Assembly: GCA_905233845.1 (NCBI GenBank) | Contig: CAJOFH010000010.1 | Coordinates: 1 to 64,000, forward strand | Length of the DNA stretch: 64,000 bases | DNA from: an uncultured Muribaculaceae bacterium | Lineage (GTDB): Bacteria > Bacteroidota > Bacteroidia > Bacteroidales > Muribaculaceae | Direction: 5' to 3' | Shown here: in pieces, positions 135 to 64,000 of the stretch | How the letters are laid out: every line of letters begins with the position of its first letter | Position numbering within the stretch: position 1 is the first letter of the stretch | Translations under genes and position numbers: made by a program | The notes under the pieces: generated by a model | What the model saw: the letters and a program-made list of their open reading frames with translations, nothing else | Database searches by the model: none | What the model was told of the DNA's origin: nothing

Positions 135-887
135 TTACTTAACATACTTCTTGCCGTTCTGGATGTAGATGCCACTCTCAGGAACACGGCTGAGTTCACG
201 ACCTTGGAGGTCGAAGATGCGGTTGTCAACTGCGTTGTCGTTGTTAATCTCGCTGATAGCGGTTGGTTTCTTAGAAACCTGGCCATTAGCCTTTACAAGA
301 TCGAGAACGATGTCTTGGTTGCCAGTGATAGCGCCGTTGTAAGTGCCAGTGGGGTCACCAGTGTAAGAGAACGAGTAAGTTGCAGGCTCAGCAGGAGTGC
401 GAAGTTGAAGATCAACTTTTGCATTGTCTTCGCAACCGCTCATGTCAAGCGAGAAACGTGCGATAATGTTGTCGTCCTCAGCAGTCAGCTGTGGGAAGAA
501 GCGGCAGTCGTTAGTCGAGAGAATCTCGATGATAACGAGGTTGCCATCCTTAACAGAGCACTTGAGGTCAGCTTTCTGGAACAGCTTGGTCTCACGCCAG
601 TTTGCGTTAGAAGGATTCCACATAGCGAGGATAACGTGTCCATAGCCAGTGAAGCCTACCCATTCTCCGTCTTCCTCATCCTCGAGCCACTCAGCGCCTT
701 CGGGCTTAATAACCTCCATGTTGAAGCCATTGAGGTAGTCAGTGCTGTTGATGAGTTTCAGATAAACCATTACATTGCTTGCGTCTTGTGATTCCTCGGC
801 AAGCTCAAAATACAGTTCTGATGGGCATTGTGCATAAGCAGCAAGGCCAATCAAAGCAGCTGCAAAAAGAGTAAAAATTTTCTTCAT
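135..887 (-). CDS. Secreted cohesin-like protein, paralogue 1, with short C-terminal sorting tail
   Basis: 250 residues. Signal peptide 1-19 (cleavage AYA/Q), a beta-rich core at about 21-200, and a C-terminal tail at 212-250 ending GIYIQNGKKYVK. The core has four cysteines (21, 110, 128, 152) suggesting two disulphides, and blocks NGFNMEVIKPEG, GYGHVILAMW, DLKCSVKDGNLVIIEILS and IIARFSLDMSGCED. The order (valine-rich strand, N-x-x-x-x-L-x-G-F, PEG, late DG and ARFSLD strands) resembles cohesin-type domains; this is my pattern reading, not a database hit. The tail resembles a type IX secretion sorting domain. It has its own leader and a terminator disrupted at position 96/97, so it is probably monocistronic. 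Function is unproven; a generic secreted immunoglobulin-like protein is the alternative. Confidence 0.85.
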   Translation of the reverse strand: MKKIFTLFAAALIGLAAYAQCPSELYFELAEESQDASNVMVYLKLINSTDYLNGFNMEVIKPEGAEWLEDEEDGEWVGFTGYGHVILAMWNPSNANWRETKLFQKADLKCSVKDGNLVIIEILSTNDCRFFPQLTAEDDNIIARFSLDMSGCEDNAKVDLQLRTPAEPATYSFSYTGDPTGTYNGAITGNQDIVLDLVKANGQVSKKPTAISEINNDNAVDNRIFDLQGRELSRVPESGIYIQNGKKYVK

Positions 888-1012
888 TTTAAAATGATTT
901 AAATGTTAATAAAATAATTAATTATTTATTAGTCACGTCATTTCGGTTGTCAAGTAGATGTCCAATTAAAGGCTTTTCTTTCGTCTTATATGGAAATCAT
1001 TGCAAAATAAAT
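888..1012 (-). promoter_or_regulatory. Shared leader and promoter region of paralogue 1
   Basis: On the minus strand it carries ACGTGACTAATAAATA (924-939) about 40-50 nt before the ATG and a -7-like TTATTTTGCA (1001-1010). The same elements precede all five paralogues. The rest of the gap to 1233 is AT-rich, then the terminator of the next gene. Confidence 0.5.
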
Positions 1013-1182
1013 AAATAATTTTTTAATCTCCAAATTTTTTTGAGAAAAAAAATATGAACTATTTATCTTCTTTTTTCAATAAAACATAGAACAAATAAAA
1101 CTGTATGTATTTTGACAAAATTTGTTGATTTTAGTTGTGTGTCGTTGTTATAGTTGTTTGATTGTTATTGCATTGAGTCAAC

Positions 1183-1214
1183 AAAAAAAGCCACCCTTGT
1201 GGGATGGCTTTTTC
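1183..1214 (-). terminator. Intrinsic terminator of paralogue 2
   Basis: AAAAAGCCACCC, loop TTGT, GGGATGGCTTTTT: a 12-bp stem with one bulged A and flanking A/T runs, just after the stop at 1234. Nearly identical terminators follow paralogues 3 and 4. Confidence 0.85.
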
Positions 1215-1233
1215 TACGTTTTGCAGCAGTTAA

Positions 1234-2250
1234 TTACTTAACATACTTTTTGCCGTTCTGGATGTAGATACCATGCTCGGGAACGCTCTTGAGCTCACGA
1301 CCTTGGATATCATAGATGCGGACATTGTTGCTGTCGGCTCCGATAGTGCTTATGCCAGTTGGTGGTGTTGTATCCTCCTCAAGAGTTACTACATCAGGAA
1401 CTTCTGTAGCATCGTAGTTCTGAGAAACATAGCCTTCCTTCTCGAAGCTTACGTTGTAAGTCTTGCCCTCTTCAGGAGTGTACTGAAGGCTGTAAGCACC
1501 TTCGTCATTGGTAGTAGTAGTGATAGCTTCTTTTGCATCAGCCTCGTTCAGAGTAACGGTAACGTCCTTAAGAGGTGCGCCGTCGGCATCCTTAACAATA
1601 CCTGAAATAGTTACAGGCTCAACAACTGGTTCAGTGCCCTTAATCTTAACGATATCACCAACCTTGGTAAGCTCGAGAACGATTGGCTCGTCAATAGTTA
1701 TAGCACCGTTGTAAGTGCCAGTGGGGTCACCAGTGTAAGAGAACGAGCATCCTTGAGGAGTAGCTTCAGAACGGAGCACGAAATCGCCATCCTCGCAACC
1801 GCTAAAGTTTAGTGAGAAGCGTGCAACGATGTTGTCGTCCTCTTCGGTCAACTGTGGGAAGAAGCGGCAGTCGAGAGTCGAGAGAATCTCGATGATAACG
1901 AGCTTTTCCTCCTTGATAGAGCACTTGAGGTCAGCTTTCTGGAAAAGCTTGGTCTCACGCCAGTTGAGGTTAGTGGGCTCCCACATAGCGAGGATAGTGT
2001 GGCCATAGCCAGTGAATCCTACCCATTCTCCGTCTTCCTCGTCCTCGAGCCACTCAGCGGCTGCGGGCTTTTGAATCTCCATGTTGAAGCCGTTGAGATA
2101 GTCAGCGCTATTGACAAGCTTCAGATGAAACATAGCATTGCTTGCGTCTTGTTCAGCCTCAGCTGGTTCAAAGTAAAGTCTTGAGGGGCACTGTGCATAG
2201 GCAGTGATGCCCAACAATGCAACTGCAAAAAGTGTAAAAAACTTTTTCAT
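1234..2250 (-). CDS. Secreted cohesin-like protein, paralogue 2, with carboxypeptidase-regulatory-like module
   Basis: 338 residues. Signal peptide 1-19, core 21-205 closely matching paralogue 1 (cysteines 21, 110, 128, 152 plus one at 168), then an inserted module at about 212-291 starting TISGIVKDADGAPLKDVTV, typical of the CarboxypepD_reg/CnaB-like beta-sandwich family, and the shared C-terminal tail ending GIYIQNGKKYVK. The module sits between core and tail, as if added to the basic 250-residue plan. In surface proteins such modules act as spacers or stabilising neighbours of binding domains, so a structural role is likely. It has its own leader and terminator. Exported, probably surface-attached (inference from the tail); function unknown. 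Confidence 0.85.
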   Translation of the reverse strand: MKKFFTLFAVALLGITAYAQCPSRLYFEPAEAEQDASNAMFHLKLVNSADYLNGFNMEIQKPAAAEWLEDEEDGEWVGFTGYGHTILAMWEPTNLNWRETKLFQKADLKCSIKEEKLVIIEILSTLDCRFFPQLTEEDDNIVARFSLNFSGCEDGDFVLRSEATPQGCSFSYTGDPTGTYNGAITIDEPIVLELTKVGDIVKIKGTEPVVEPVTISGIVKDADGAPLKDVTVTLNEADAKEAITTTTNDEGAYSLQYTPEEGKTYNVSFEKEGYVSQNYDATEVPDVVTLEEDTTPPTGISTIGADSNNVRIYDIQGRELKSVPEHGIYIQNGKKYVK

Positions 2251-2365
2251 TTTAAAATGATTTAAATGTTTAAGAATTATTTATCAGTCACGTCATTTCG
2301 GTTGTTTAGTAAATGTCCAATTAAAGGCTTTTCTTTCAACTTATATTGAAATCATTGCAAAATAA
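2251..2365 (-). promoter_or_regulatory. Shared leader and promoter region of paralogue 2
   Basis: Variant of the conserved leader element at 2278-2293 (one substitution) and -7-like TTATTTTGCAATGA at about 2352-2365. The gap 2366-2601 is AT-rich and contains GTCGGCCTAATGAC (2507-2520), which recurs near 34960. Confidence 0.5.
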
Positions 2366-2601
2366 ATAATTAATTGTTTAATCTCCAAATATCTTTGAGA
2401 AAAATAATATGAACTAATTGTCTTGTAGAACTATTTGTCTTATTTTATCAATAAAACATAGAACAAAAAACTGTTATGACATAGAAGACTAAAAAAACAA
2501 CCTGTCGTCGGCCTAATGACTGATTTGGGTTTAACAACATTTGTTGATTTTAGTTGTGTGTTGTTGTTATAGTTGTTTGATTGTTATTGTATTGAGTCAA
2601 C

Positions 2602-2634
2602 AAAAAAAGCCACCCTTGTGGGATGGCTTTTTTT
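2602..2634 (-). terminator. Intrinsic terminator of paralogue 3
   Basis: Same hairpin as at 1183: AAAAAGCCACCC-TTGT-GGGATGGCTTTTT. About 85 bp upstream on the plus strand (2535-2601) also nearly repeats 1115-1182, so the duplication includes intergenic DNA. Confidence 0.85.
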
Positions 2635-2652
2635 ACGTTTTGCAGCAGTTAA

Positions 2653-3408
2653 TTACTTAACATACTTTTTGCCGTTCTGGATGTAGATACCACTCTCAGG
2701 AACACGGCTGAGCTCACGACCCTGGAGGTCGAAGATGCGGTTGTCAACAGCCTGGTCGTTGTTGATCTCGCTGATAGCGGTGTTAACCTTTGCTCTAACA
2801 ATATCGTTAGTCTTGTCCAACTCGAGAACGATTGGCTCGTCAATAGTGATAGCGCCGTTTACTGCACCAGTTGGGTCACCAGTGTAAGAGAATGAGCATC
2901 CTTGAGGAGTAGCGTCAGATCTGAGTTCAAGACTTTCTCCTCTGGTGTCCTCGCAACCGCTAAAGTCAAGCGAGAAGCGTGCAACGATGTTGTCGTCCTC
3001 TTCGGTCAACTGTGGGAAGAAGCGGCAGTCGAGAGTCGAGAGAATCTCGATGATAACGAGCTTGCCCTCCTTTATAGAGCACTTGAGGTCAGCTTTTTGG
3101 AACAGCTTGGTCTCACGCCAGTTGAGGTTAGAGGGATTCCACATAGCAAGGATAGTGTGGCCATAACCAGTGAAGCCTACCCATTCGCCATCTTCTGCGT
3201 CCTCTACCCACTCAGCGTTTTCGGGCTTTTGAATCTCCATGTTAAAACCATTGAGGTAATCAGTGCTGTTGACAAGTTTCAGGAAAACCATAACATTGTC
3301 AGCAGGCTGTTCAGCTTCAGCAAGCTCAAAGTAAAGCCTTGAAGGGCACTGTGCATAAGCAGCAAGACCAATCAAAGCGGCAGCAAAAAGTGTAAATACT
3401 TTCTTCAT
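2653..3408 (-). CDS. Secreted cohesin-like protein, paralogue 3
   Basis: 251 residues with the same plan as paralogue 1: signal peptide 1-19 (AYA/Q), core 21-200 and a tail identical to paralogue 1 from IFDLQGRELSRVPESG to the end. The core keeps cysteines 21, 110, 128 and SGCED, and has the extra GCSFSYTGDP cysteine shared with paralogues 2 and 4. The region after the core (DKTNDIVRAKVNTAISEINN) is short, so this and paralogue 1 are the minimal forms. It has its own leader and terminator. The mixture of core and tail variants among paralogues suggests recombination between copies. Function unproven. Confidence 0.85.
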   Translation of the reverse strand: MKKVFTLFAAALIGLAAYAQCPSRLYFELAEAEQPADNVMVFLKLVNSTDYLNGFNMEIQKPENAEWVEDAEDGEWVGFTGYGHTILAMWNPSNLNWRETKLFQKADLKCSIKEGKLVIIEILSTLDCRFFPQLTEEDDNIVARFSLDFSGCEDTRGESLELRSDATPQGCSFSYTGDPTGAVNGAITIDEPIVLELDKTNDIVRAKVNTAISEINNDQAVDNRIFDLQGRELSRVPESGIYIQNGKKYVK

Positions 3409-3530
3409 TTTAAAATGATTTTAATGTTTAAGAATTAATTATTTATTAGTCACGTCATTTCGGTTGTTAATGATATAATCATATTGAGGCATAATGGTAA
3501 CCTCTCTCATGAAAATCATTGCAAAGTAAC
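3409..3530 (-). promoter_or_regulatory. Shared leader and promoter region of paralogue 3
   Basis: Conserved leader 16-mer (plus strand TATTTATTAGTCACGT, 3440-3455) and -7-like TTACTTTGCAATGA near 3516-3529. Upstream of the 16-mer it diverges from paralogues 1 and 2. Confidence 0.5.
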
Positions 3531-3580
3531 TAAAATAATTTTTAATCACCAAATTTTTAAAAGAAAAAAGAAATAAAACA

Positions 3581-3612
3581 AAAAAAGCCACCCTTGCAGG
3601 ATGGCTTTTTAG
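3581..3612 (-). terminator. Intrinsic terminator of paralogue 4
   Basis: AAAAAGCCACCC, loop TTGC, AGGATGGCTTTTT. Same family as the terminators at 1183 and 2602 with small changes in the loop. Confidence 0.8.
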
Positions 3613-3630
3613 TGTTTTTGCAGCAGTTAA

Positions 3631-4740
3631 TTACTTAACATACTTCTTGCCGTTCTGGATGTAGATGCCACTCTCAGGAACACGGCTGAGCTCACGACCC
3701 TGGAGGTCGAAGATGCGGCCGTCGGCATTGTCAGCATTGATAGTGCTAATGCCAGTTGGCTGCCAGTTGATCTCCATTACGAGAGGCTCAGTGAGACCAC
3801 GAGCTTCCTTAACAACGATGTTGTAAGCACCAGTCTCAACAACCTTGAAGTTAGCACCGTCACACAATGCGATGTTAGCGCCATTGAGATCGTTTACAAG
3901 CTCGAAGTAGCCAACATTGTTAGCATCCTCGCCACCGAACCAAATCCAACCATCATTTGCGTCAGGAGTGATGAGCTTGAATTCATCACCTGCCTGTAAG
4001 TCTACAGTACCAGCGAAGTTGCCATCACCGTCCTCGGTAAGAGCGATGCGGCCACCCTCCTCAGTCTGGTTCCATCCGTTGAATGTGCCAACTACATAGA
4101 ACTCGTTGTAGCCCTCTGCAGCAGGAGCCTTAGCGGTAATCTTGCCGTCAGCCTTGGTGAGCTCAAGATTGATTGGCTCGTCGATGGTAATAGCGCCATC
4201 ATAGGTGAGAGTTGGGTCACCAGTGTAAGAGAACGAGCATCCCGATGCACTAGCGTCAGAATGGAGAACGAGGTCACCATCCTCGCACTCACTGAAGTCA
4301 AGTGAGAAGCGTGCGATAATGTTGTCGTCCTCTTCGGTCAACTGAGGGAAGAAGCGGCAGTCGAGAGTTGAGAGAATCTCGATGATAACGAGGTTTTCAC
4401 CCTTGACATTGCACTTGAGGTCAGCTTTCTGGAAGAGCTTGGTCTCGCGCCAGTTTACGTTGGCAACGTCCCACATGGCAAGGATAGTATGGCCATAGCC
4501 AGTGAATCCTACCCATTCTCCGTCTTCCTCATCCATTAGCCAGTTAGCGGCTGCGGGCTTTTGAATCTCCATGTTGAAGCCGTTGAGATAGTCAGTGCTG
4601 TTGACAAGCTTCAGATAAAACATAGCATTGCTTGCGTCTTGTTCAGCCTGAGCTGGTTCAAAGTAAAGCCTTGAGGGGCACTGTGCATAAGCAGCAAGAC
4701 CAATCAATGCAGCTGCAAAAAGTGTAAATACTTTCTTCAT
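3631..4740 (-). CDS. Secreted cohesin-like protein, paralogue 4, with starch-binding-type CBM module
   Basis: 369 residues. Signal peptide 1-19 and core 21-205 as in the other paralogues (SECED replaces SGCED), then a module at about 212-326 beginning NEFYVVGTFNGWNQ and containing EFKLITPDANDGWIWFGGED, then the shared tail. YVVGTFNGW is the hallmark of SusE/SusF and AMPK-type glycan-binding modules. The secreted protein at 35426 carries a clearly homologous module (LYLVGTFNGWSQ, ITPNEEGGWTWYGGQD). A cohesin-like core joined to a glycan-binding module resembles a small scaffoldin (inference). It has its own leader and terminator. Confidence 0.85.
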   Translation of the reverse strand: MKKVFTLFAAALIGLAAYAQCPSRLYFEPAQAEQDASNAMFYLKLVNSTDYLNGFNMEIQKPAAANWLMDEEDGEWVGFTGYGHTILAMWDVANVNWRETKLFQKADLKCNVKGENLVIIEILSTLDCRFFPQLTEEDDNIIARFSLDFSECEDGDLVLHSDASASGCSFSYTGDPTLTYDGAITIDEPINLELTKADGKITAKAPAAEGYNEFYVVGTFNGWNQTEEGGRIALTEDGDGNFAGTVDLQAGDEFKLITPDANDGWIWFGGEDANNVGYFELVNDLNGANIALCDGANFKVVETGAYNIVVKEARGLTEPLVMEINWQPTGISTINADNADGRIFDLQGRELSRVPESGIYIQNGKKYVK

Positions 4741-4864
4741 TTTAAAATGATTTTAAAGTGTTAAAAAATAATTAATTATTTATTAGTCACGTCATTTCAC
4801 TTATTGAAGTGATGTTCTAAAAGTGGTGGTGTTGTCCACAATTGGAAATCATTGCAAAATAAAT
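4741..4864 (-). promoter_or_regulatory. Shared leader and promoter region of paralogue 4
   Basis: Conserved leader 16-mer at 4777-4792 and -7-like TTATTTTGCAATGA near 4850-4863. Between 4865 and 4981 I see only AT-rich sequence and no clear terminator for the gene ending at 4982. Confidence 0.5.
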
Positions 4865-4981
4865 GATTTTTTTTAAAATATCCAAACTTTTTTGAGAAAA
4901 AATAAGAAAATATTTTGCTGTTTTTTTCAGTTTTACTTAAAAACGCTGGTATAGTGAGAATTGTATAATGAAAAAAATAGT

Positions 4982-6478
4982 TTACAAGTTTGGAGTTGAT
5001 ACGGTAACCATGGCGGTGGGGTTGCTGTAGAACGATGGGATCTCGAACGAGATTCCCTCGCAGGTATAGGTGGTGCCACCAGTTATTACGATGTTTCGCA
5101 AGTATTTGTACTTCTGGGTGTAGCCAGGTGTCACAGTCGATGAGCGTCCACCAATGCCCAGGATGTAGCCACCGTTGGTGAAGAATCCGCACTTACCGTT
5201 AAATGCGCGAGCGTCGTATTTGCTTGCCGCCACGCGCACGGTGCCACCAGTGATTGTGATTGCTCCGTCGGCCTTTACACCGCCCGCCTTGGTGTCGTGG
5301 GTGGAGTTGTATTCGTAGACATCGCCAGTTGTCACGGCTGTGAAATTGCCGCCGCTAATGTTGATGCTGCCGTCGGTGTTCAGACCCTTGCCTCCCACTC
5401 CAGTGCTGGTGAGGTAGACGGTGCCTGCTGTCATGTTGAAGGTGCTGTCACACTTGATGGCGGCACAGCTGCTGATGTCGTTCTCGGTGGCGTCGAAGAC
5501 AGCGTCGCCGCTTGTGCTGGCAGTGATTGAGCCCCCAGCGATGGTCATTATCGACTCGCTCTTGATGGCCTTAACGGTGTTGGCGCTGGTGGTGACGTTG
5601 AGTGTGCCGTCGTTCATGATGAACTGTCCGTTGTTGGTGTCGGTTTCATCTTTAGTGCACCCCACGTCAATGCCGTCACCGCCAGTGGTGTTGATAGTCA
5701 CGGTGCCACCGTCCATACTGAAGTATTGGTTGATGTGCATGCCGTCGCTCACCGAGTTGGTCACAGTGATTGTGCCGCTGGTGATGCGTGTGTATTCATC
5801 GCTACGGTAAGCGTGCTTGCTGTTGCCGGTGAGAGTGAGTGTGCCGCTACCTGCAATCACGGCATGGCCATTGATGAAGAGGCAGGCCTTTTGTGGTCCT
5901 CCTGTAGCATCGCTCAGGATGTTAGTGCCGTTGAGTGTCACGTCGATGCGCTTGCCGTTGTCGATGTTGATGGCTGCGCTGTCGGGGTTGTGGATGCTCA
6001 CGTTGTTGAGGTTGACGAAGCACTTGTATTCTCCGTCCATATAGAACGAGCCATTGGTTGTTGAGCCGCTCAGGTTATAGAACACTGAGTCCTGAAGTGC
6101 GGGTGCGGCAACGATATTGACGTGGGCGCCGTTCACCGCTACGGTCATCAGGCCCTTGATGTTCTTGGCTACGGTAACTGTGGCACTCGATCCGTCGTAC
6201 TCCACGTTGACAGTGTAGTCGTCGATATCGGGACCGTCATCCACGCCGAGAAGGACGTTGTAGATAATAGTGATATCAACCGATGTGATTATTCCGTCAC
6301 CGTCCTGGTCACCGTTGACAATATCGCTGGTGTCGCCGTTGAGCAGATAGTTGTAAAGTATTGTGACATCAACACTTGAGACGATGCCGTCACCGTTAAC
6401 GTCGCCAGTGATGGCGCTTGCTTTATGTCCTAAGGCCGCTCCCAACAAGAGCAGTGCCACTGCAATGGTCTTTTTCAT
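4982..6478 (-). CDS. Secreted DUF4353-type beta-helix carbohydrate-binding protein with N-terminal dockerin
   Basis: 498 residues. Signal peptide about 1-22. A two-repeat dockerin-like domain at about 23-80 has calcium loops DVNGDGIVSSVD and DQDGDGIITSVD, each followed by a TILYNYLL-type helix. From about 90 to 440 there is a repetitive Thr/Gly/Asn-rich parallel beta-helix (SGTITVTN, GGTVTINT, GGSITAST, GGNFTAVT), matching the DUF4353/Cthe_2159 family; the founding member is an acid-sugar and cellulose-binding protein of a cellulosome bacterium (family knowledge). The C-terminus ends in a short beta region without the GIYIQNGKK tail. It lies inside the array of cohesin-like genes but has its own promoter and lacks their leader. 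Likely role: glycan-binding component docked to a partner. Confidence 0.85.
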   Translation of the reverse strand: MKKTIAVALLLLGAALGHKASAITGDVNGDGIVSSVDVTILYNYLLNGDTSDIVNGDQDGDGIITSVDITIIYNVLLGVDDGPDIDDYTVNVEYDGSSATVTVAKNIKGLMTVAVNGAHVNIVAAPALQDSVFYNLSGSTTNGSFYMDGEYKCFVNLNNVSIHNPDSAAINIDNGKRIDVTLNGTNILSDATGGPQKACLFINGHAVIAGSGTLTLTGNSKHAYRSDEYTRITSGTITVTNSVSDGMHINQYFSMDGGTVTINTTGGDGIDVGCTKDETDTNNGQFIMNDGTLNVTTSANTVKAIKSESIMTIAGGSITASTSGDAVFDATENDISSCAAIKCDSTFNMTAGTVYLTSTGVGGKGLNTDGSINISGGNFTAVTTGDVYEYNSTHDTKAGGVKADGAITITGGTVRVAASKYDARAFNGKCGFFTNGGYILGIGGRSSTVTPGYTQKYKYLRNIVITGGTTYTCEGISFEIPSFYSNPTAMVTVSTPNL

Positions 6479-6519
6479 TTTGTCTGGTTAAAATTGTGTT
6501 TCATTTGGTTTTGTGAGCG

Positions 6520-6527
6520 CAAATTTA
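6520..6527 (-). promoter_or_regulatory. -7 box for the dockerin beta-helix gene
   Basis: Minus strand TAAATTTG, an exact TAnnTTTG match about 42-49 nt upstream of the ATG at 6478. Confidence 0.5.
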
Positions 6528-6620
6528 CGCAATCAAAGTCAAAATAACAAATATATATAATAATGTGTCAATTTTTTTGATGATAATTATCACAAACAGT
6601 CATTATTGTTCAATGAAATA

Positions 6621-6651
6621 AAAAAAACCACCCGTGATGGGTGGTTTTTTG
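6621..6651 (-). terminator. Intrinsic terminator of paralogue 5
   Basis: AAAAAACCACCC, loop GTGAT, GGGTGGTTTTTT: a perfect 12-bp stem directly after the stop at 6674. Diverged relative of the other paralogue terminators. Confidence 0.9.
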
Positions 6652-6673
6652 TTTTGCATTGCAGTTAAGTTAA

Positions 6674-7468
6674 TTACTTAACATACTTCTTGCCGTTCTG
6701 GATGTAGATACCATGCTCGGGAACGGTCTGGAGCTCACGGCCCATGATGTCGAAGATGCGGTTGTCAACATTCTTATCGGCGTCGATAGTGTTGATGCCA
6801 GTGTAGACTTGTCTAACCTTGTCACCAGTCTTGTTGAGTTGAGCAACAATCTTGTCGCCAGTCCAAGCACGAGTGCCCTCTACACCACCGGTGTAAGAGA
6901 ACGACAGCATCTCGGGCTTAGAAGCAGTAACGAGATAGTAGTCGCCATCGGCGCAAGCGCTCATGTCAACAGTAAAGCGAGCTACAGTCTCCATGTTAGG
7001 AGCCTCGATTACTGGGAAGAAGCGGCAGTCGTTAGTCGAGAGGATCTCGATGATAACGAGGTTGTGAGTGTCTTCCTTTACACTGCACTTGAGGTCGCAC
7101 TTTTGGAAAAGTTTCTTCTCCCTCTGAGAGTCGGTTTGTCCTTCCCAACGTGCAAGGATAGTGGGGCCATAGCCACTGAAGCCTACATACTCCTCATCGT
7201 CCTCGTCCAGTAACCATTCAATGGCATCGCAGTAGTCACCTACTTGGTCGTCGGCTGCACCTTCGTTTAAGCACTTTGCAACCTCCATGTTGAAACCATT
7301 GAGGTTCTCGCTTGAGTTTTGAAGCTGGAGCAACATTGTTACCTTGTTGGCATCCTGCTCTTCCTCGGCAGCATTAAAGAACAGCTTTGAGGGGCATGGT
7401 CCATCGTCCTGTGCAAAAGCAGAAAGGCCAAGCAAAGCAACTGCAAAAAGAGTAAAAATTTTCTTCAT
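6674..7468 (-). CDS. Secreted cohesin-like protein, paralogue 5 (divergent)
   Basis: 264 residues. Signal peptide about 1-19 (AFA/Q), then DDGPCPSKLFF. The core is clearly homologous to the other four (NLNGFNMEVAK, YVGFSGYGPTILARW, DLKCSVKEDTHNLVIIEILS, ETVARFTVDMSACADGD) but diverged and has an insertion with two more cysteines (KCLNEGAADDQVGDYCDA) between the GF strand and the acidic loop. The tail ends RIFDIMGRELQTVPEHGIYIQNGKKYVK-like, almost as in paralogue 2. The gene is separated from the others by the dockerin beta-helix gene, and may be the oldest or functionally distinct copy. Function unproven. Confidence 0.85.
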   Translation of the reverse strand: MKKIFTLFAVALLGLSAFAQDDGPCPSKLFFNAAEEEQDANKVTMLLQLQNSSENLNGFNMEVAKCLNEGAADDQVGDYCDAIEWLLDEDDEEYVGFSGYGPTILARWEGQTDSQREKKLFQKCDLKCSVKEDTHNLVIIEILSTNDCRFFPVIEAPNMETVARFTVDMSACADGDYYLVTASKPEMLSFSYTGGVEGTRAWTGDKIVAQLNKTGDKVRQVYTGINTIDADKNVDNRIFDIMGRELQTVPEHGIYIQNGKKYVK

Positions 7469-38957: not shown

Positions 38958-41111
38958 ATGAAGAAGAAATTATTACTCTTAGCAGCCGTAGTGCTGCCGT
39001 TGCTGAGCAATGCTCAGGGATGGCCCGACAATTATGGCGGTGTCATGATGCAGGCGTTCTCGTGGAACTCCTTTGGCGACACCCGATGGGTGAACCTTAC
39101 TAAGCAGGTCGACGAGATTTCGCAGTATTTCGACCTTATCTGGATTCCACAGAGCGGTTGGACTGGTAGCGGAGGTTCGATGGGATATGACGTGAAGTAT
39201 TACTTCAATCAAAAAAGCGCCTTCGGAACTGCTACCGAGTTGCGCGAACTCATCAGCACCTACAAGGGCAAAGGCACAGGCGTGATTGCCGACGTGGTGG
39301 TGAATCACCGTGGAACTCTCACCAATTGGGTTGACTTCCCCGTTGAGACCTATAACGGCGTCACCTATCAGATGACACCTGCCGACATCACCAAGAACGA
39401 TGATGGCGGAGCCACAGCCACTTGGCTTGCCAATCAACAGGCTCTGGGCAATATTGACGCGAGTGTTACCCTGAGTTCCAACAATGACGAAGGTGAGGAC
39501 TGGGGCGGAATGCGCGACCTCGACCACAAGAGCGAGAACGTGCGTAACGTCATCAAGGCTTATGTGAGTTTCCTTGCTAACGACCTGGGCTACACTGGCT
39601 TCCGTTACGATATGACTCGTGGTTTCTGGGCAAGCCGTGTTGCTGAGTATAACGCAACTGCTGGCGTGCAGTTCTCGGTTGGCGAGAACTGGAGCAGCCT
39701 GAACGAGATTCAGACTTGGATTGACAACTGCAAGTGGAATGGTGTGAACATGAGTGCGTCGTTCGACTTCCCCTTCCGATACACAGTGCGTGATGTGATT
39801 CGTGGCAAGAACGATGCCGGCTCTACAAAGAACTGGAAAGACCTCACCATTGGTGGCTTGATGGCAAGTCCAAATTTCAAACGCTATTCAGTGACCTTTG
39901 TCGAGAATCACGACACCCAGTATCGCGATGAGAACAACCAGAACGATCCCATCCGCAAGGACACCCTTGCAGCCAACGCCTACCTGCTCACTATGCCTGG
40001 CACTCCTTGCGTGTTCCTGCCTCACTGGAAGGATTACAAGCAGGAAATAAAGGACATGATTGATATTCGCAAAACTGTGGGAATTACCAACACTAGCACA
40101 GCACAAAAGTATCCGCTCTCTAAGAGCTATGAAATGTCGGGCTTCAAGTCAAGCAGTTCCAATGGCAAGTCAATGTACTGCATCGTGGGTAATAATAAAT
40201 ATGTAAGAGCTGACAATGTGATTAACCAGTATTATCCCTCAATTATTAATGAGGCGGTAGAGGTGACCAAGGGATATGGCTATCGTCTCTATATGTCGAA
40301 GAATTGCGAGACCGCTTGGGTCGACAAGGCATCGGGTAAGTATAAAACAGCTTTCGACGCAAGGCTTACTGCTGTGACCGCCACCAGTGGCGCACAACTC
40401 GTTTACACCTTCGACGGCTCAACTCCAACCGCTAGCAGTCCCAAGGTGGCATCCAACGGCACTGTACACATCACTCAGCCCTGCATACTCACCGTAGGTC
40501 TGCTCAAGGGCGGTGCTGTGAGCGGTATCGTAACCCGCAACTACGACTTTGCAGGCCAAGGCGCTCCCCACACAATCAACGTCTATGTCAATGCTGACGA
40601 TGCAGGCTGGAACCTTGTGCGCTACTACACTTGGGATCAGGATGACCAGCAGCACAACGGCAACTGGCCTGGAGAGGTTATCCAGCAGAAAGTATCTGTT
40701 GGCGGCAAAACTTGGTTTGTTCATCAATATGAGCTCGCTAATGACGACTGCTTCATGAACTTCGTGTTCAACACAGGAGCCAGTGGCTCGCCACAAACTG
40801 TTGATGTGAGATATGCTACCACCGACAAGTTCTATACGATTTCGGCCGATAAAGATCCTGACGAGGGCAAGAACATGGTGAATGATGTTACCGAGCAATA
40901 TGCAGGTTTGCCTGTAACACCCGTAACAGCCATGCCTGGCGACGTGAACGGCGACGGTGTTGTTTCAAGTGTTGATGTCACTATTCTCTACAACTACCTG
41001 CTCAACAATGACAGCGAATCTATGGTCAACGGCGACCAGGATGGCGACGGTATTATCACTTCGGTTGATATCACCATAATCTATAACATCTTGCTCGGAG
41101 GAGGTAACTAA
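38958..41111 (+). CDS. Secreted GH13 alpha-amylase with C-terminal dockerin
   Basis: 717 residues. Signal peptide 1-19 (SNA/Q); no lipobox. GH13 barrel at about 25-400 with the catalytic triad Asp218 (GFRYDMTRG), Glu243 (VGENW) and Asp319 (ENHDTQ) and region I DVVVNH. A chitobiase-type CHB_HEX_C module is at about 470-530 (VYTFDGSTPT), then an unassigned beta module at about 535-640. The dockerin at about 657-717 has calcium loops DVNGDGVVSSVD and DQDGDGIITSVD. Hydrolyses alpha-1,4-glucans outside the cell. A SusG-type lipoprotein anchor is replaced by a dockerin, so a protein partner may hold it at the surface (inference). Confidence 0.93.
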   Translation: MKKKLLLLAAVVLPLLSNAQGWPDNYGGVMMQAFSWNSFGDTRWVNLTKQVDEISQYFDLIWIPQSGWTGSGGSMGYDVKYYFNQKSAFGTATELRELISTYKGKGTGVIADVVVNHRGTLTNWVDFPVETYNGVTYQMTPADITKNDDGGATATWLANQQALGNIDASVTLSSNNDEGEDWGGMRDLDHKSENVRNVIKAYVSFLANDLGYTGFRYDMTRGFWASRVAEYNATAGVQFSVGENWSSLNEIQTWIDNCKWNGVNMSASFDFPFRYTVRDVIRGKNDAGSTKNWKDLTIGGLMASPNFKRYSVTFVENHDTQYRDENNQNDPIRKDTLAANAYLLTMPGTPCVFLPHWKDYKQEIKDMIDIRKTVGITNTSTAQKYPLSKSYEMSGFKSSSSNGKSMYCIVGNNKYVRADNVINQYYPSIINEAVEVTKGYGYRLYMSKNCETAWVDKASGKYKTAFDARLTAVTATSGAQLVYTFDGSTPTASSPKVASNGTVHITQPCILTVGLLKGGAVSGIVTRNYDFAGQGAPHTINVYVNADDAGWNLVRYYTWDQDDQQHNGNWPGEVIQQKVSVGGKTWFVHQYELANDDCFMNFVFNTGASGSPQTVDVRYATTDKFYTISADKDPDEGKNMVNDVTEQYAGLPVTPVTAMPGDVNGDGVVSSVDVTILYNYLLNNDSESMVNGDQDGDGIITSVDITIIYNILLGGGN

Positions 41112-41217: not shown

Positions 41218-42519
41218 ATGAAAAATCCAGTAAAATATTTTCTTGCGATTGCAGTTGTGGCAATGGCCTCACAAGTGGCTGTTGCCTATAACTATGACGT
41301 GAATGGTGACGGAGCGGTGACATCGGTTGATGTTACAACAATCTACAACTATTTACTTAACAATGACATGACCTTCTATGCCACAAGCGATGTGAATGGC
41401 GACGGAGCAATCACAGCTACCGATATTACGATAATCTACGATTATTTACTCAACGGTGCTCCTGTGCTCGAGCAGTTGGTAGGTGGAGACATCTCGATGC
41501 TCACAAAATATGAGGAGGCTGGGGCTATCTATAAGGATAAGAATGGCAACACTATTAATAATATCTTGTCTTTCTTTGGTGAACAGGGGTGGAACGCGAT
41601 GCGCGTGCGGCTCTTTGTCAATCCCGAGAATGCCTCCGAAACTGCCAAGAAGGAAGGCGTGGTGCAAGACCTTGCCTATGTGAAGACACTTGGCAAGCGC
41701 ATCAAGGATGCAGGTTATGCTTTGGTGCTCGACCTGCACTATAGCGACACCTGGGCCGACCCAGGAGCGCAGGGAGTGCCTGCTGCTTGGCCCAAAAACG
41801 ACGTTGAGGCACTTAAAGACAGCGTTTACAACTACACCAAGCGCGTGATGCAGGAGATGATTGCAGCTGGTGCACGTCCCGACTTCATTCAGCTTGGCAA
41901 CGAGATTACAGGTGGCATGCTGTGGCCCACAGGACAGGTTTATCCCACTGGAGGAGCGCCCGCTGGTGGCTCATGGGAGAACTTTTCCGCCTATCAGCAA
42001 CGCGCATCTCAAGCAGTGCGTGAGGTCAGCCCCACAACCAAAATCATTCTCCATGTGGAGATGCACAACATTAACCAACCTGGCGCATTCTTTAGCAACT
42101 GCGAAAGCTATGGCGTGGACTATGACGTGATGGGGTTGAGTTACTATAGTGCTTATCATGGCACTTTTGCTAATCTCAATGCCGTGCTCAACAACATGGA
42201 AGCGGCATCCTCCAAGCCCATTATGATTATGGAATGTGGATATGGATATGCTTGGGCGTTGCCAGGCACTAACTATAACCTCACCGCAACCTATCCCTAC
42301 AGCAATGAGGGTCAGTGCAGCTTCACAATCAACATGATTGCCGCTCTCAAGCAGCACAGCCGTGTGAAAGGCTTGTTCTGGTGGTGGCCCGAAGCCAACG
42401 AATATGGCATCGACTGGCAGAACTCAGTTACCGGCAGTTGGTGGAACGGCAGCCTCTTCGACAACCGCGACGGCAAGGCCCAAAACGCACTCTACGAGAT
42501 GAAACAATTTTTGAACTAG
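41218..42519 (+). CDS. GH53 arabinogalactan endo-beta-1,4-galactanase with N-terminal dockerin
   Basis: 433 residues. Signal peptide about 1-23, directly followed by a dockerin-like domain at about 24-80 with calcium loops DVNGDGAVTSVD and DVNGDGAITATD. GH53 domain 88-433: GGDISMLTKYEEAGAIYKD, WNAMRVRLFVNP, LDLHYSDTWADPG; acid/base Glu229 (LGNEITGGMLWP) and nucleophile Glu339 (IMECGYGYAW). Cleaves beta-1,4-galactan of pectin side chains. The dockerin is on the N-terminal side, the reverse of the amylase. It lies 106 bp after the amylase gene in the same direction, with no lipobox. The stop TAG sits in CTAG nonamer array 5. Confidence 0.93.
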   Translation: MKNPVKYFLAIAVVAMASQVAVAYNYDVNGDGAVTSVDVTTIYNYLLNNDMTFYATSDVNGDGAITATDITIIYDYLLNGAPVLEQLVGGDISMLTKYEEAGAIYKDKNGNTINNILSFFGEQGWNAMRVRLFVNPENASETAKKEGVVQDLAYVKTLGKRIKDAGYALVLDLHYSDTWADPGAQGVPAAWPKNDVEALKDSVYNYTKRVMQEMIAAGARPDFIQLGNEITGGMLWPTGQVYPTGGAPAGGSWENFSAYQQRASQAVREVSPTTKIILHVEMHNINQPGAFFSNCESYGVDYDVMGLSYYSAYHGTFANLNAVLNNMEAASSKPIMIMECGYGYAWALPGTNYNLTATYPYSNEGQCSFTINMIAALKQHSRVKGLFWWWPEANEYGIDWQNSVTGSWWNGSLFDNRDGKAQNALYEMKQFLN

Positions 42520-56383: not shown

Positions 56384-56610
56384 TTGTGCATTATGCATTA
56401 TGAATTGTGCATTGTGCATTGTGCATTGAGCATTGTGCATTATGCATTGAGCATTGTGCATTATGCATTGTGCATTATGCATTGTGCATTGTGCATTGTG
56501 CAATGTGCATTGTGCATTGAGCATTGTGCATTATGCATTGTGCATTGTGCATTGTGCATTGTGCATTGTGCAATGTGCATTGTGCATTGAGCATTGTGCA
56601 TTGTGCATTA
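56384..56610. repeat. Heptamer array C (about 32 units of GCATTRT) with a 70-bp tandem duplication
   Basis: About 227 bp of GCATTGT/GCATTAT/GCATTGA variants. 56448-56517 and 56518-56587 are 70-bp copies (ten units) that differ at one base (A at 56477, G at 56547). It borders the stop of the BspA-like gene. Confidence 0.95.
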
Positions 56611-59600
56611 TTTGGAGTTTCCCAGCAGTATATTGTAAACAAGGGTCACATCTCCTGCGGTGATGTTGCCATCGCCATCTTGGTCTCCGTTGACGATAAG
56701 GCTGCCATCGCCATTGAGAATCCAGTTGTAGAGTGCTGTAATGTCCCCTGCGGTAACGTTGCCGTCACCGTCCACGTCGCCAGGAACAGCCACCACGGGA
56801 TTAGAGTCGGTGAAGTAGCCTGGACGTTCGGGGCCGCGGTCAATGCGGGCATACTCAGCATCGCCATTGTAATCGCTATAGGTGGTGCCCATGCCGCCCA
56901 CAATATTATAGCAGTGATAGAACATGCATAATGAGTTGGCTGAACTACTTATGTTCCAATCTCGATCGGCATAGATGGTGGTCAGACTATCGCACTCGTT
57001 GAACATGCAAAACGTACTGGTGACATTATCGGCGCTCCAGCCCGAGAGGTCGAGCGAGGTGAGGCTTTTGCAATAATCGAACATCATGCCCATGTTGCTT
57101 ACATTACCAGTGTCCCAGCCCGAGAGGTCGAGCTTTTTAAGTTTCTTGCAGTAGTTGAACATTCTATACATGTTGGTGATAGCGTTAGCGTTGACACTGT
57201 TAAAGTCCATGCTTGTGCAATTTGAGAAATTATAGAACAACTCTGTGCAGTCGCCCGTGAAACTCACCAGGATGTTGGCGGTGACGCTCGTGACTTCCGA
57301 GACTGGCACATCGTCGCCCCACTTGTTGCCCCTGTTGAACTCGCCCCAGATGAGCGACAGCTCACCAGTCTCACTGTTGAAGGTGTATTGTGGCATCGTA
57401 AAGTAACCCGGGCAGTCGGGACTGCAATCAATGCGAGCATATTCCTTGTCAACGTGGTTCTCGTCATAGGTGGTGCCATTGCAGCCCACCAAGTCATTGC
57501 AGTCCTTGAACATGTCATCTGAATAGATGACATTCTCGGTACTCCAATCGGGCCACCCCGCATAGATGGTAGTAAGTTTCGAGCATTTGTTGAACATCCT
57601 CTCCATATTGGTGATTTCGCTGGTGTTCCAACCCGAGAGGTCGAGCGAGGTGAGGCTATTACAATTATAGAACATCTCACTCACATCGGTTACATTGCCG
57701 GTGTCCCAATTGGATATAATGAGCGTATCAAGGCTAATGCACTCGTAGAACATGCGGTCCATGTCAACGACATTGCCTGTGTTCCACCCCGACAGGTTAA
57801 GCGAAACAAGTTTTTGACACCCCGAGAACATAGCTCCCATATTAGTGGCATTGGCGGTGTTGACACCACTGAAATCCATGTTAACGCAATTTGAGAAATC
57901 GTAGAACAAATTGGAGCAGTCGCCAGTGAAGCTCACATTGCTGGTCGTGGTCACACTCGTGACTGCCGAGGCTGGCACATCGTCACCCCACTTGTCGTCC
58001 TTGTTGAACTCGCCCCAGATGAGCGACAGTGTGCCGGTGGTGCTGTCGTAGGTGTAGCGCGGCAATTCCAAGCCGCTGAAGTAGCCTGGGCAGTCAGGAC
58101 CACCGTCGAGGCGGGCATATTCCTTGTCAATGTGGTTCTCGTCGTAGGTCGTGCCCTTATCGCCAACCAATGAGAGGCATTGAGCGAACATCACACTTGA
58201 GCTGGTGTTATTCCCTATGTGCCAATCTCGATCGGCATAGATGGTGGTCAGGCTATCGTTACCAGCGAACATACAATACATTTTGGTAACCTTACCAGCG
58301 CTCCATCCCGAGAGGTCGAGCGTTTTGAGACAATAGCAGCAGCAGAACAGATTAATCATTTCGGTGACATTACTAGTGTCCCAGCCCGAGACGTTGACCT
58401 TTTTAAGTTTCAAGCAGTGGTCGAACATGAAGGACATATTAGTGACCTTTGTGGTATTGAAGTTCGAAATGTCGAGCGAGTCGAGGCTGTTGCATTGCAG
58501 GAACAATCCGTACATGTTGGTGACATTGCCAGTATCCCAGTTCGAGAGGTCAATCGAAGTCAATTTAGCGCAGCCAGTGAACAGATTTGCCATGTTGGTT
58601 ACATTGCTGGTATTGACACTGTTCAAATCAAAGCTCGTGCAATTGCTGAAGCCCTGGAACAGTTCGGAGCAGTCGCCCGTGAAGCTAACCTCATTGGTGG
58701 CGGTGACGCTCGTGACTTCCGAGGCTGGCACATCATCACCCCACTTGTTGTCTTTGTTGAAATCGCCCCAGTTGAGCGACAGTGTGCCGGTGGTGCTGTC
58801 GTAGGTGTAGCGCGGCAATGCATTCGGGTCGGTGAAGTAGCCTGGGTTGGTGGGGGCGCCGTCGATGTGGGCATAGTCAGCACGGATGTGGCTATTGTCA
58901 AAGACCGTGCCCCTGCCGCCAACCAGTGAATAGCATTCAGAGAACACGATTCTTGAGTTGACGGAATTCCCGAAGCTCCAATTATGATCGGTATATATGG
59001 TAGTAAGGTTATGGCAGAAGTCAAACATGCCCTCTATCCAAGTGTCCTCGCTAGTGCTCCAGCCTGAGAGGTCGAGCGTTTCGAGACCATAGCAACAATG
59101 GAACATGTCCCACATGCTAAGGACATTACCAGTGTCCCAGCCCGAGACGTTGAGCTTTTTGAGGTTTGTGCAGTTGTAGAACATGCTGGTCATCTCGGTG
59201 ACATTGCCAGTATCCCAGTTCGATAGGTCGAGCGAGTCAAGGCTTTCGCATTTTTCGAACATCTTATTCATTTTTGTGACATTACCAGTGTCCCAGGTCG
59301 AGAGGTCGAGATTTTTAAGATTTGTGCATTGCTCGAACATGTAGGTCATATCAGTGACCTTCGAGGTATTGAAGTTTGAAATGTTAAGCGTGTTGAGGAG
59401 GCTGCACTGCATGAACATACCGTACATATCGGTGACATTGCCGGTGTCCCAACCCGAGAGGTCGAGCGAAGTCAATCTCTGACAGGCAACGAACATAGTT
59501 TGCATACTTGTAACATTGCTGGTATTCACACGATTCAAATCAAAACTCGTGCAAAAAACGAAGCCCATGAACAGCTGTGAGCAGTCGCCCGTGAAGCTCA

Positions 59601-62075: not shown

Positions 62076-62161
62076 CATTGTGCATTCTGCATTGCATCGC
62101 GGCGTTAGCCCCAATTGTGCATTGTGCATTATGCATTATGAATTATGCATTGTGCATTAAT
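62076..62161. repeat. Heptamer array D, with mini-hairpin
   Basis: GCATTGT/GCATTAT/GCATTCT units interrupted by GGC-GTTA-GCC (62101-62110). The last unit provides the stop context of the gene ending at 62161. Confidence 0.8.
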
Positions 62162-64000
62162 TAAATTCCCAGCAGGATATTGTAAACAAGGGTTACATCT
62201 CCTGCGGTGATGTTGCCATCGCCATCTTGGTCACCGTTGACGATAAGGCTGCCATCGCCATTGAGAATCCAGTTGTAGAGGGCGGTCACATCACCTGCGG
62301 TAACGTTGCCGTCGCCATCCACGTCGCCTGGAACAACCACAACGGGATTAGAGTCGGTGAAGTAGCCTGGGCAGTCAGGGCCGCCGTCGATGCGGGCATA
62401 TTCCTTGTCCGAGTGGTTCTGGTCGAAGGTTGTGCCCTTGCCGCCAACCAATGAGGTGCAGCCCGAGAACATGGCACTTGCACTTGTGGAATTAGGGATG
62501 TTCCAATCTCGATCGACATAGATGGTGGTCAGGCTATCGCTAAAAGCGAACATAGCATTCATTTCGGTAACCTTACCGGCGCTCCATCCCGAGAGATCGA
62601 GCGTTTTGAGACAATGGCAGCTGCAGAACAGATTAAACATTCCCGTGACATTACCAGTGTCCCAGCCCGAGACGTTGAGCTTTTTAAGTTTTATGCAGGT
62701 ATCGAACATGAGGGACATATTGGTGACCTTGGCAGTATTGAAGTTCGAGAGGTCGAGCGAGTCGAGGCTGTTGCATTGCAGGAACAATCCGTACATGTTG
62801 GTGACATTGCTGGTGTTCCAGTTCGAGAGGTCAATTGAAGTCAATTTAGCGCAGCCGGTAAACAACATATTCATACTTGTAACATTGCTGGTGTTGACAC
62901 TGTTCAGGTCCATGCTTGTGCAATTGTAAAATCCAGTGAACAAATTCGAGCAGTCGCCAGTGAAGCTCACCTCGCTGGTGGCGGTGACTCTCGTGACTGC
63001 CGAGGCTGGCACATCGTCGCCCCACTTGTTGTCCTTGTTGAACTCGCCCCATAGGAGGGCCAGCTCACCGGTGGTGCTGTTGAAGGTGTATTGTGGTGGG
63101 TCGGTTACTGTGGCAGTGATGGTGACATTATCTAATGGCATCTCAAAGGTGTTGCCCTCTATAGCGGTGCCGTTCACGGCAAAGATAAGCACTTTGCCCT
63201 CAGGCACCTCGCCGTTGTAGGTGAGGGTGACAGTGGTACCAGCGGTGTAGTAAGCAGTGTCGCCGACTGAGAAGACAGGAGTTGCCGATGCTGTAACATC
63301 CGCGGGCAGGGTGAGCGTGAACACACCCGTTAAGTAGCCTGGCTCAGCGGTGCCATGGTCAATGCGGGCATATTCTTTATCTTTGTGGTTCTCGTCGTAG
63401 GTGGTACCACAGCCGCCCACCAGTTTGTTGCACCTATCGAACATGTATGAAGATGAATAAGTGACATTCTCAGTACTCCAACTTGTGGTAACATAGATGG
63501 TAGTGAGGCTTACGCAACTTATAAACATGCCTTCCATGTTGGTGACATTGCTAGTGTCCCACCCCGAGAGATTGATCGATGGGGTCTGAGTGCAAGACAT
63601 AAACATCGAGAACATATCGGTGACGTTGCTGGTGTTCCACCCCGAGAGGTTGAGTGGTTTGTTGCTCTGGAAATAAGTAAACATATCTGTCATCTTGGTG
63701 ACTTTTCCAGTGTCCCAACCCGAGAGGTCGAGAGAGGCGACGGTCATACGACAAAGAGAGAACATCTCGCTCATATTGGTGACATTGCCAGTGTTCCAAT
63801 TCAAGATATTAAAAGAGTAGGACCTAATCGAACAATTATAGAACATCCTGCTCATATTGGTAACATTGCCGGTATCCCAATTTGAGATATTAAATGTGAG
63901 AGCACTGCTCTCTTCGAACATACTGCTCATATTGGTGGCATTGGCGGTGTTGACACTATTCAAATCAAAGCTAGTGCAATTGCCGAAACCCATGAACAGC
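62161..64000 (-). CDS. BspA-like surface protein with DUF285 repeats and C-terminal dockerin (N-terminus beyond window)
   Basis: 613 residues are visible and the frame stays open to the right window edge, so signal peptide and first domains are missing. It is a close paralogue of the gene at 56608: one and a half DUF285 blocks (ATNMSSMFEESSALTFNISNWDTG; YTFNSTTGELALLWGEFN), the bridging module GVFTLTLPADVTASATPVFS, and the terminal dockerin DVDGDGNVTAGDVTALYNW / DQDGDGNITAGD, almost identical to its neighbour's. The end is LLGI instead of LLGNSK. Head-to-tail arrangement with the neighbour implies tandem duplication and gene conversion. Confidence 0.93.
   Translation of the reverse strand, partial: LFMGFGNCTSFDLNSVNTANATNMSSMFEESSALTFNISNWDTGNVTNMSRMFYNCSIRSYSFNILNWNTGNVTNMSEMFSLCRMTVASLDLSGWDTGKVTKMTDMFTYFQSNKPLNLSGWNTSNVTDMFSMFMSCTQTPSINLSGWDTSNVTNMEGMFISCVSLTTIYVTTSWSTENVTYSSSYMFDRCNKLVGGCGTTYDENHKDKEYARIDHGTAEPGYLTGVFTLTLPADVTASATPVFSVGDTAYYTAGTTVTLTYNGEVPEGKVLIFAVNGTAIEGNTFEMPLDNVTITATVTDPPQYTFNSTTGELALLWGEFNKDNKWGDDVPASAVTRVTATSEVSFTGDCSNLFTGFYNCTSMDLNSVNTSNVTSMNMLFTGCAKLTSIDLSNWNTSNVTNMYGLFLQCNSLDSLDLSNFNTAKVTNMSLMFDTCIKLKKLNVSGWDTGNVTGMFNLFCSCHCLKTLDLSGWSAGKVTEMNAMFAFSDSLTTIYVDRDWNIPNSTSASAMFSGCTSLVGGKGTTFDQNHSDKEYARIDGGPDCPGYFTDSNPVVVVPGDVDGDGNVTAGDVTALYNWILNGDGSLIVNGDQDGDGNITAGDVTLVYNILLGI

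Follow-up and report, generated by a model that had tools for sequence, protein, structure and literature searches.

Genes of the array

The DNA analysed here (the window) comprises the initial 64 kb of contig C10 from the genome of an uncultured Muribaculaceae bacterium; the assembly has a size of 3.2 Mb and is 97% complete. At positions 135–7468, the window carries an array of five paralogous open reading frames (ORFs), all on the minus strand, together with a gene for a dockerin protein. The subject of this study is the core domain shared by the five paralogues, its predicted cohesin-type fold and its possible part in a cohesin/dockerin system. In cellulosomes, cohesins act as sockets into which the dockerins of enzymes plug. 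Because the window starts at base 1 of the contig, the contig end may have truncated the array, and further copies have possibly been lost.

The five ORFs lie at 135–887, 1234–2250, 2653–3408, 3631–4740 and 6674–7468, and their products (array proteins 1 to 5) are 61–80% identical to protein 1 in a full alignment. All five open with a stretch that resembles a signal peptide by eye (MKKxFTLFA...A(Y/F)AQ), followed by a common core, about 185 residues long, that contains GFNME and ARF(S/T) motifs, and by a near-identical tail, the final 12 residues of which (GIYIQNGKKYVK) are the same in all five. Proteins 1 (250 aa, core at about 264–827) and 3 (251 aa, core at 2785–3348) consist of signal peptide, core and a tail resembling surface-sorting domains. 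Two others carry an extra domain between core and tail: a CarboxypepD_reg linker at residues 214–285 of protein 2 (338 aa, core at 1636–2190) and a SusF_SusE-like domain at residues 217–312 of protein 4 (369 aa, core at 4126–4680; E 3.8e-6). Protein 5 (264 aa, core at 6803–7396, with tail) is the most diverged copy. A sixth core copy of the genome was found on contig C8.

Between array genes 4 and 5, also on the minus strand, lies the dockerin gene (4982–6478). Its product combines an N-terminal type I dockerin at 6248–6406 (residues 25–77, E 1.9e-9) with a Cthe_2159 beta-helix (E 1.8e-47). A preliminary description of this DNA had reported five signal-peptide paralogues with an identical tail, arranged around a sixth gene with an N-terminal dockerin. 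ORFs, alignment and Pfam matches bear out this layout, the tail being near-identical overall and strictly identical over its last 12 residues. The four shared cysteines of that description are indeed invariant within the five proteins (C21, C110, C128 and C152 in protein 1 numbering), but only C21 and C128 are kept in the alignment of the wider core family.

Predicted fold of the core

An AlphaFold2 model of the core was computed for the folded stretch 2785–3348 of protein 3 from an alignment of 34 window and relative sequences. The model showed a predicted local distance difference test (pLDDT) score of 95.4 and a predicted template modelling (pTM) score of 0.90. A Foldseek search against the PDB returned 12 chains at E≤0.001, 11 of which belong to eight cohesin/scaffoldin entries and one to an integrin. 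The best match was 2jh2_C (E 6.4e-5), with a template modelling (TM) score of 0.49 on the model and 0.67 on the target; the type III ScaE cohesin 2zf9_D lies narrowly beyond the threshold (E 1.3e-3, TM 0.55/0.57). The preliminary description had suspected a cohesin fold, and the confident model, made of one core, agrees with it.

The model contains an inserted stretch with two short helices between strands 4 and 5, the strand numbers being our own inference. In the family alignment, the most conserved strands are 3, 6, 8 (one of its three segments) and 5, with mean entropies of 1.00, 0.83, 1.11 and 1.28 bits, compared with 2.01, 1.60, 1.74, 1.64 and 1.91 bits for strands 1, 2, 4, 7 and 9. The 8-3-6-5 face of cohesins is their dockerin-binding sheet. 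On the strength of the model, the array core very probably adopts a cohesin-type fold interrupted by a helical insert.

A second, divergent cohesin family

A second family of candidate cohesins was found elsewhere in the same genome; it is absent from the window. One member is a scaffoldin-like protein of 916 aa in which six divergent cohesin modules in tandem are followed by a C-terminal dockerin (locus L019, 3086–5836; contig C22, 16085–18835). A profile based on these and similar repeats recovered 14 such modules in the genome, distributed over contigs C22, C8, C43 and C9. Homologues were also sought in viral contigs, and none was found there.

Standard searches recognize this family poorly. 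With the Pfam Cohesin model (PF00963), one frame of the genome, that of the six-module L019 protein, exceeded the cut-off on summed repeats (24.2 bits against a cut-off of 24.1; best single repeat 23.1), and one further match was weak. At a lax E≤1, matches were likewise obtained in two of the 14 genomes used as controls, those of E. coli and Methanosarcina acetivorans, one of them above the cut-off. No Cohesin match was obtained at E≤0.1 when eight divergent-cohesin chains of the genome were scanned as whole proteins with hmmscan, and one of four chains from relatives matched (23.2 bits). Among individual modules from relatives in the genus, 8/40 matched PF00963, with a best E of 3.8e-7, the next family matching 3/40; the other 32 gave no PF00963 match. 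In PDB sequence searches, a 9-sequence profile ranked the cohesin 5n5p first (E 0.035), and a 40-sequence profile did not rank a cohesin first, cohesins appearing at E 0.035 and worse across both. Because this rank was lost with the larger profile, the assignment rests on the Pfam matches and on domain architecture.

The domain architecture is of the scaffoldin type. A dockerin is present in the same chain in 17 of 19 examined frames, which come from loci selected around cohesin matches. The arrangements include cohesin-dockerin, cohesin-dockerin-cohesin, dockerin-cohesin, two cohesins with LRR and a dockerin (locus L063, in the genome of the window), and the six cohesins with a dockerin described above. 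Two proteins of genus relatives (L118, 4108–4770; L122, 5695–6369) combine one cohesin module and one dockerin in 221–225 aa and resemble adaptor scaffoldins. From these sequences, the divergent modules are read as cohesins of scaffoldin-like and adaptor-like proteins.

Distribution across the genus and family

The genome of the window contains at least 121 dockerins in 3.2 Mb, a lower bound, as 150 of 204 candidates were scored. Within the genus, all 61 sampled genomes contain dockerins, at counts between at least 28 and at least 89 per genome among up to 87 scored candidates in each. Divergent cohesins are likewise present in 61/61 (1 to 16 per genome). Within the family, 62 of 198 genomes contain divergent cohesins and 83 contain dockerins (at E≤0.001, among up to 30 scored candidates per genome; 75 of the 83 exceed the Pfam cut-off). 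Dockerins accompany divergent cohesins in 53 of the 62 genomes that have them, compared with 30 of the 136 without them. This association extends beyond the genus, where 37 genomes have both, nine the cohesins only, 30 dockerins only and 106 neither (Fisher p 2.3e-12, ignoring phylogeny). One genome of another genus (G001) contains at least 30 dockerins and gave no match to the divergent cohesin profile, so the link between the two is not complete. Overall, the genus very likely encodes a true cohesin/dockerin system, in which the divergent family is the likely general partner of the dockerins.

Relatives of the array core

Relatives of the core were sought in a pattern-limited species-level search of 84,980 species, with one genome per species. 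This search yielded 16 loci, labelled Muribaculaceae, Prevotellaceae, Porphyromonadaceae or Bacteroidales. The record titles name a rumen or omasum sample for four of the 16, and eight of the other 12 bear RUG isolate names, which we take to indicate rumen origin. Two or three consecutive core genes occur at 12 of the 16 loci, and in some relatives a SusF_SusE-like or CarboxypepD_reg domain is again placed between core and tail. In one genus relative (L035, 5911–7956), both array-core genes are each split over two frames, with internal stops counted, and may be pseudogenes or assembly errors. In the genome samples, the core was found in the dockerin-rich genus only, and the genus of several records of the species-level search is unlabelled. 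A marginal order-level match to the core profile (G254, E 7e-4) was discounted, as the protein appears by eye to be of SusC type.

One protein joins the two families. On contig C8 of the genome, L018 4717–6201 encodes a fusion of a divergent cohesin module, Big_2, an array core and the tail, and is located directly downstream of a dockerin-cohesin gene. Among the 58 core frames listed, no other includes a module of the divergent cohesin family, and the fusion speaks in favour of the core taking part in the cohesin/dockerin system.

Proposed role of the array heads

What is the function of the array heads? The best explanation as a whole, to which we assign a probability of roughly 0.4, is that they are accessory cohesin-fold surface receptors in the cohesin/dockerin system of the genus. 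The array genes would encode secreted, surface-displayed proteins; the head of each would be a cohesin-fold module that is specific to the lineage, has diverged strongly and contains a helical insert. The host genus would maintain an extensive system of more than 100 dockerin-tagged proteins (peptidases, amidases, glycosidases and LRR proteins among those scanned), for which the separate divergent family, on scaffoldin-like and adaptor-like proteins, would be the likely general partner. The array proteins would be exported by the type IX system and retained at the surface via their tail, with a SusE/F-like module sometimes added, and their heads would bind a subset of the dockerins through the face formed by strands 8-3-6-5. 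Dockerin binding by the core, taken by itself, is given slightly less than an even chance. The fuller picture, with two kinds of socket for more than 100 cargo proteins, namely divergent cohesins mostly missed by standard searches and an array core that retains the cohesin fold with almost no resemblance in sequence and captures its own dockerin subset at the surface, is more tentative.

Export by the type IX route is suggested by the presence in the genome of its SprA/Sov translocon (TIGR04189, 2725 bits) and by the array tail, which resembles type A sorting domains by eye, as judged against what we take to be their motif.

A number of results weigh against this reading. First, no array protein was matched by the sorting-domain model TIGR04183 at E≤10; two other proteins of the genome were matched weakly, below its cut-off. 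Since the model does not match the array tail, surface display is what we infer from the likeness. Second, sequence searches gave no firm link between the core and cohesins. None of 34 core members matched PF00963, PDB sequence searches with the core returned non-cohesins only (E 0.24 or worse), and the NCBIfam search yielded no firm cohesin assignment. Alignment of the core with the divergent cohesins by hhalign gave probabilities of 3.0% and 0.6% (E 0.015 and 0.096, over 33 and 25 columns). Third, the structural similarity is modest, the 11 cohesin chains having TM scores of 0.42–0.54 on the model and up to 0.67 on the target. Integrins and other beta-sandwiches rank closely behind the cohesins, with complement C5 and antibody chains lower. 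A longer AlphaFold2 model, comprising core, SusE/F-like domain and tail, had a pLDDT of 73.7, too weak for the extra domain; its first-ranked match was a cohesin double module at a TM score of 0.28 and a root-mean-square deviation (rmsd) of 23 Å, with complement C3c chains at ranks 2–5, and it therefore adds little. Conservation in the proposed binding face is mixed as well, the remaining two segments of strand 8 having entropies of 2.17 and 1.14 bits.

Fourth, the distribution and the gene neighbourhoods of the core do not follow those of the dockerins. The core was detected in 8/61 genomes of the genus and, with a narrower 5-sequence profile, in six of the 198 genomes of the family, all from the genus of the window. 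A dockerin in the same chain was found in 0/58 listed core frames (47 of them distinct). Around the core genes of the species-level search loci, no dockerin was found in 172 kb, with 6.5 expected from the dockerin density of the window's genome; a second, overlapping and non-independent set of core genes had one dockerin in 127 kb, with 4.8 expected. The hidden Markov model used for these neighbourhoods was built from eight sequences, counted matches to a domain E of 0.05 and recovered all five dockerins of the window. Because dockerins are scarce near core genes elsewhere, the gene at 4982–6478 is not a conserved neighbour of the array, and its linkage to the array was rejected as evidence.

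These last observations favour the strongest alternative, in which the core is a cohesin-fold domain that no longer binds dockerins, or never did, and instead serves as the surface adhesin or carbohydrate-binding head of a fast-evolving tandem family, sometimes attached to a SusE/F-like module. The dockerin gene of the window array would then be a chance neighbour, which is easily obtained because dockerins are so dense in this genome. The patchy distribution, the scarcity of dockerins near core genes elsewhere, the tandem copies with exchanged accessory modules and the SusF_SusE matches are all consistent with such a head. Against it stand the L018 protein, in which a core is fused to a divergent cohesin module next to a dockerin-cohesin gene, and the structure search, in which cohesins, and not carbohydrate-binding modules, were the best matches. 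We consider this alternative a serious one, somewhat below even odds.

A second alternative, that the core belongs to another type of secreted beta-sandwich and that the ranking of cohesins reflects common jelly-roll geometry, appears improbable. It would account for TM scores of 0.39–0.54 on the model and rmsd values of 4.6–10.1 Å among the 12 best chains, for the integrin, complement and antibody chains in the lists, including C3c behind the longer model, and for the lack of firm sequence support. The concentration of 11 of the 12 best matches in eight different cohesin/scaffoldin entries argues against it.

The proposal of the preliminary description, that Bacteroidales dockerins in general have their missing partner in the shared core, is very improbable: the cohesin-like predicted fold, the dockerin gene inside the array, the many dockerins of the genome and its cohesin/dockerin system agree with it, but the core was not found in 53 of the 61 dockerin-bearing genomes of the genus or in other sampled genera (an over-diverged core would escape the profile), and all 61 of these genomes have the other cohesin family, the frames of which mostly carry a dockerin themselves. 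Because of this patchy distribution, the core was rejected as the general partner. The array heads are most likely accessory proteins, specific to this lineage and of predicted cohesin fold.

Dockerin-bearing proteins in the window and genome

The preliminary description had also named dockerins in the genes starting at 38958, 41218 and 56608. Pfam matches show that these are real, and one more was found at 62161. Two of the four genes are on the plus strand and encode putative dockerin cargo: an alpha-amylase-like protein with a CBM26-like stretch and a C-terminal dockerin at 40935–41096 (38958–41111), and a GH53 protein with an N-terminal dockerin at 41293–41451 (41218–42519). The other two are on the minus strand: an LRR_5/DUF285 protein of 1729 aa with a C-terminal dockerin at 56623–56784 (56608–61797), and a DUF285 repeat protein with a C-terminal dockerin at 62170–62331 (62161–63993), the frame of which exceeds the window and encodes 1083 aa in the genome. 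The type I dockerins of the array gene 4982–6478 and of the other cargo match PF00404, and duplicated DxNxDG...D calcium loops are legible in the dockerin sequences inspected.

Across the genome, 27 dockerin-bearing frames were collected from 20 stretches, mostly around top-scoring places, and 20 of them were scanned for domains. Peptidases are represented by three C10 proteins, one of them also with an FGE-sulfatase domain, and one M6 protein. Three further FGE-sulfatase, two CotH, two Amidase_3 and four LRR proteins were found, as well as one SusD-like protein, one NS nuclease and one GH18 protein; two frames contain no other domain at E≤1e-6. The C10 or M6 peptidases with a dockerin at L130, L141 and L143 give the scanned cargo a more proteolytic than cellulolytic look. 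The SusD-like protein with an N-terminal dockerin (L140, 1–1293, contig C18) would link the glycan-uptake and dockerin systems. By eye, the dockerins of the genome are of two styles: the usual one, with ...YNYLLNG..., is found on cargo, and the other, with ...DYVxTAxYILE..., directly precedes a cohesin module, as at L018 and L063. These sequence styles possibly correspond to different specificities.

Comparison with known systems

In the accessible part of a study based on a rumen gene catalogue, metagenome-assembled genomes of Bacteroidetes are described as having dockerins and conspicuously no recognizable cohesins, with two explanations offered: cohesins are not needed, or are too distant to see (PMC7260996). 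In the accessible part of a camel-rumen study, a Bacteroidetes bin (136) is listed with five dockerins and a gene for a cohesin and is grouped with the bins in which two to four cohesin domains are repeated in tandem. Bin 129 contains two cohesins without a dockerin, and bins 49 and 58 contain 11 dockerins without a cohesin (PMC6071333). Because bin 136 already combines dockerins and tandem cohesins, cohesins in rumen Bacteroidetes, even tandem ones, are not new as such. By description, rather than by sequence, this bin resembles the genome analysed here, whereas a genus-wide pattern, an assignment of partners and a core of the array type are not described in that part of the study. A Bacteroidales scaffoldin is not described in the accessible parts of PMC9763041, PMC6118326, PMC7480376, PMC5831590 and PMC10266427, and none is announced in the open-access titles and abstract openings searched, subscription literature lying mostly outside this search.

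For one genus, the present data favour the answer that the cohesins are too distant to see, because divergent cohesins occur in all 61 genomes, mostly in chains with a dockerin, and co-occur with dockerins across the family. The sequences located here make the question of the missing cohesins directly testable. Should the array core bind dockerins, it would represent a second class of socket, visible by structure only, and possibly a new orthogonal pair for designer protein assemblies.

The scaffoldin-like proteins of L019 and L063, and the adaptor-like proteins L118 and L122 of genus relatives, copy the plan of the cellulosome and amylosome scaffoldins and of the adaptor scaffoldins of Ruminococcus and Clostridium. 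Unlike those systems, they belong to Bacteroidales with a type IX translocon and have very divergent cohesins. The cargo differs as well: among the 20 frames scanned, peptidases, amidases, FGE-like proteins and LRR proteins are abundant, and GH13, GH53 and GH18 are also present in the cargo. Compared with established cohesins (PF00963; type III ScaE of Ruminococcus flavefaciens, PDB 2zf9; the cohesin-like module of C. perfringens, PDB 2jh2), the array core is alike in predicted fold, and the array proteins are alike in being secreted and in belonging to a dockerin-rich genome. They differ in the lack of firm sequence similarity, in the helical insert between strands 4 and 5 as numbered here, and in having one core each with a sorting-like tail. 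Some array proteins share a SusF_SusE-like domain with the SusE/SusF surface glycan-binding proteins, from which they are distinguished by a head with a predicted cohesin-fold core.

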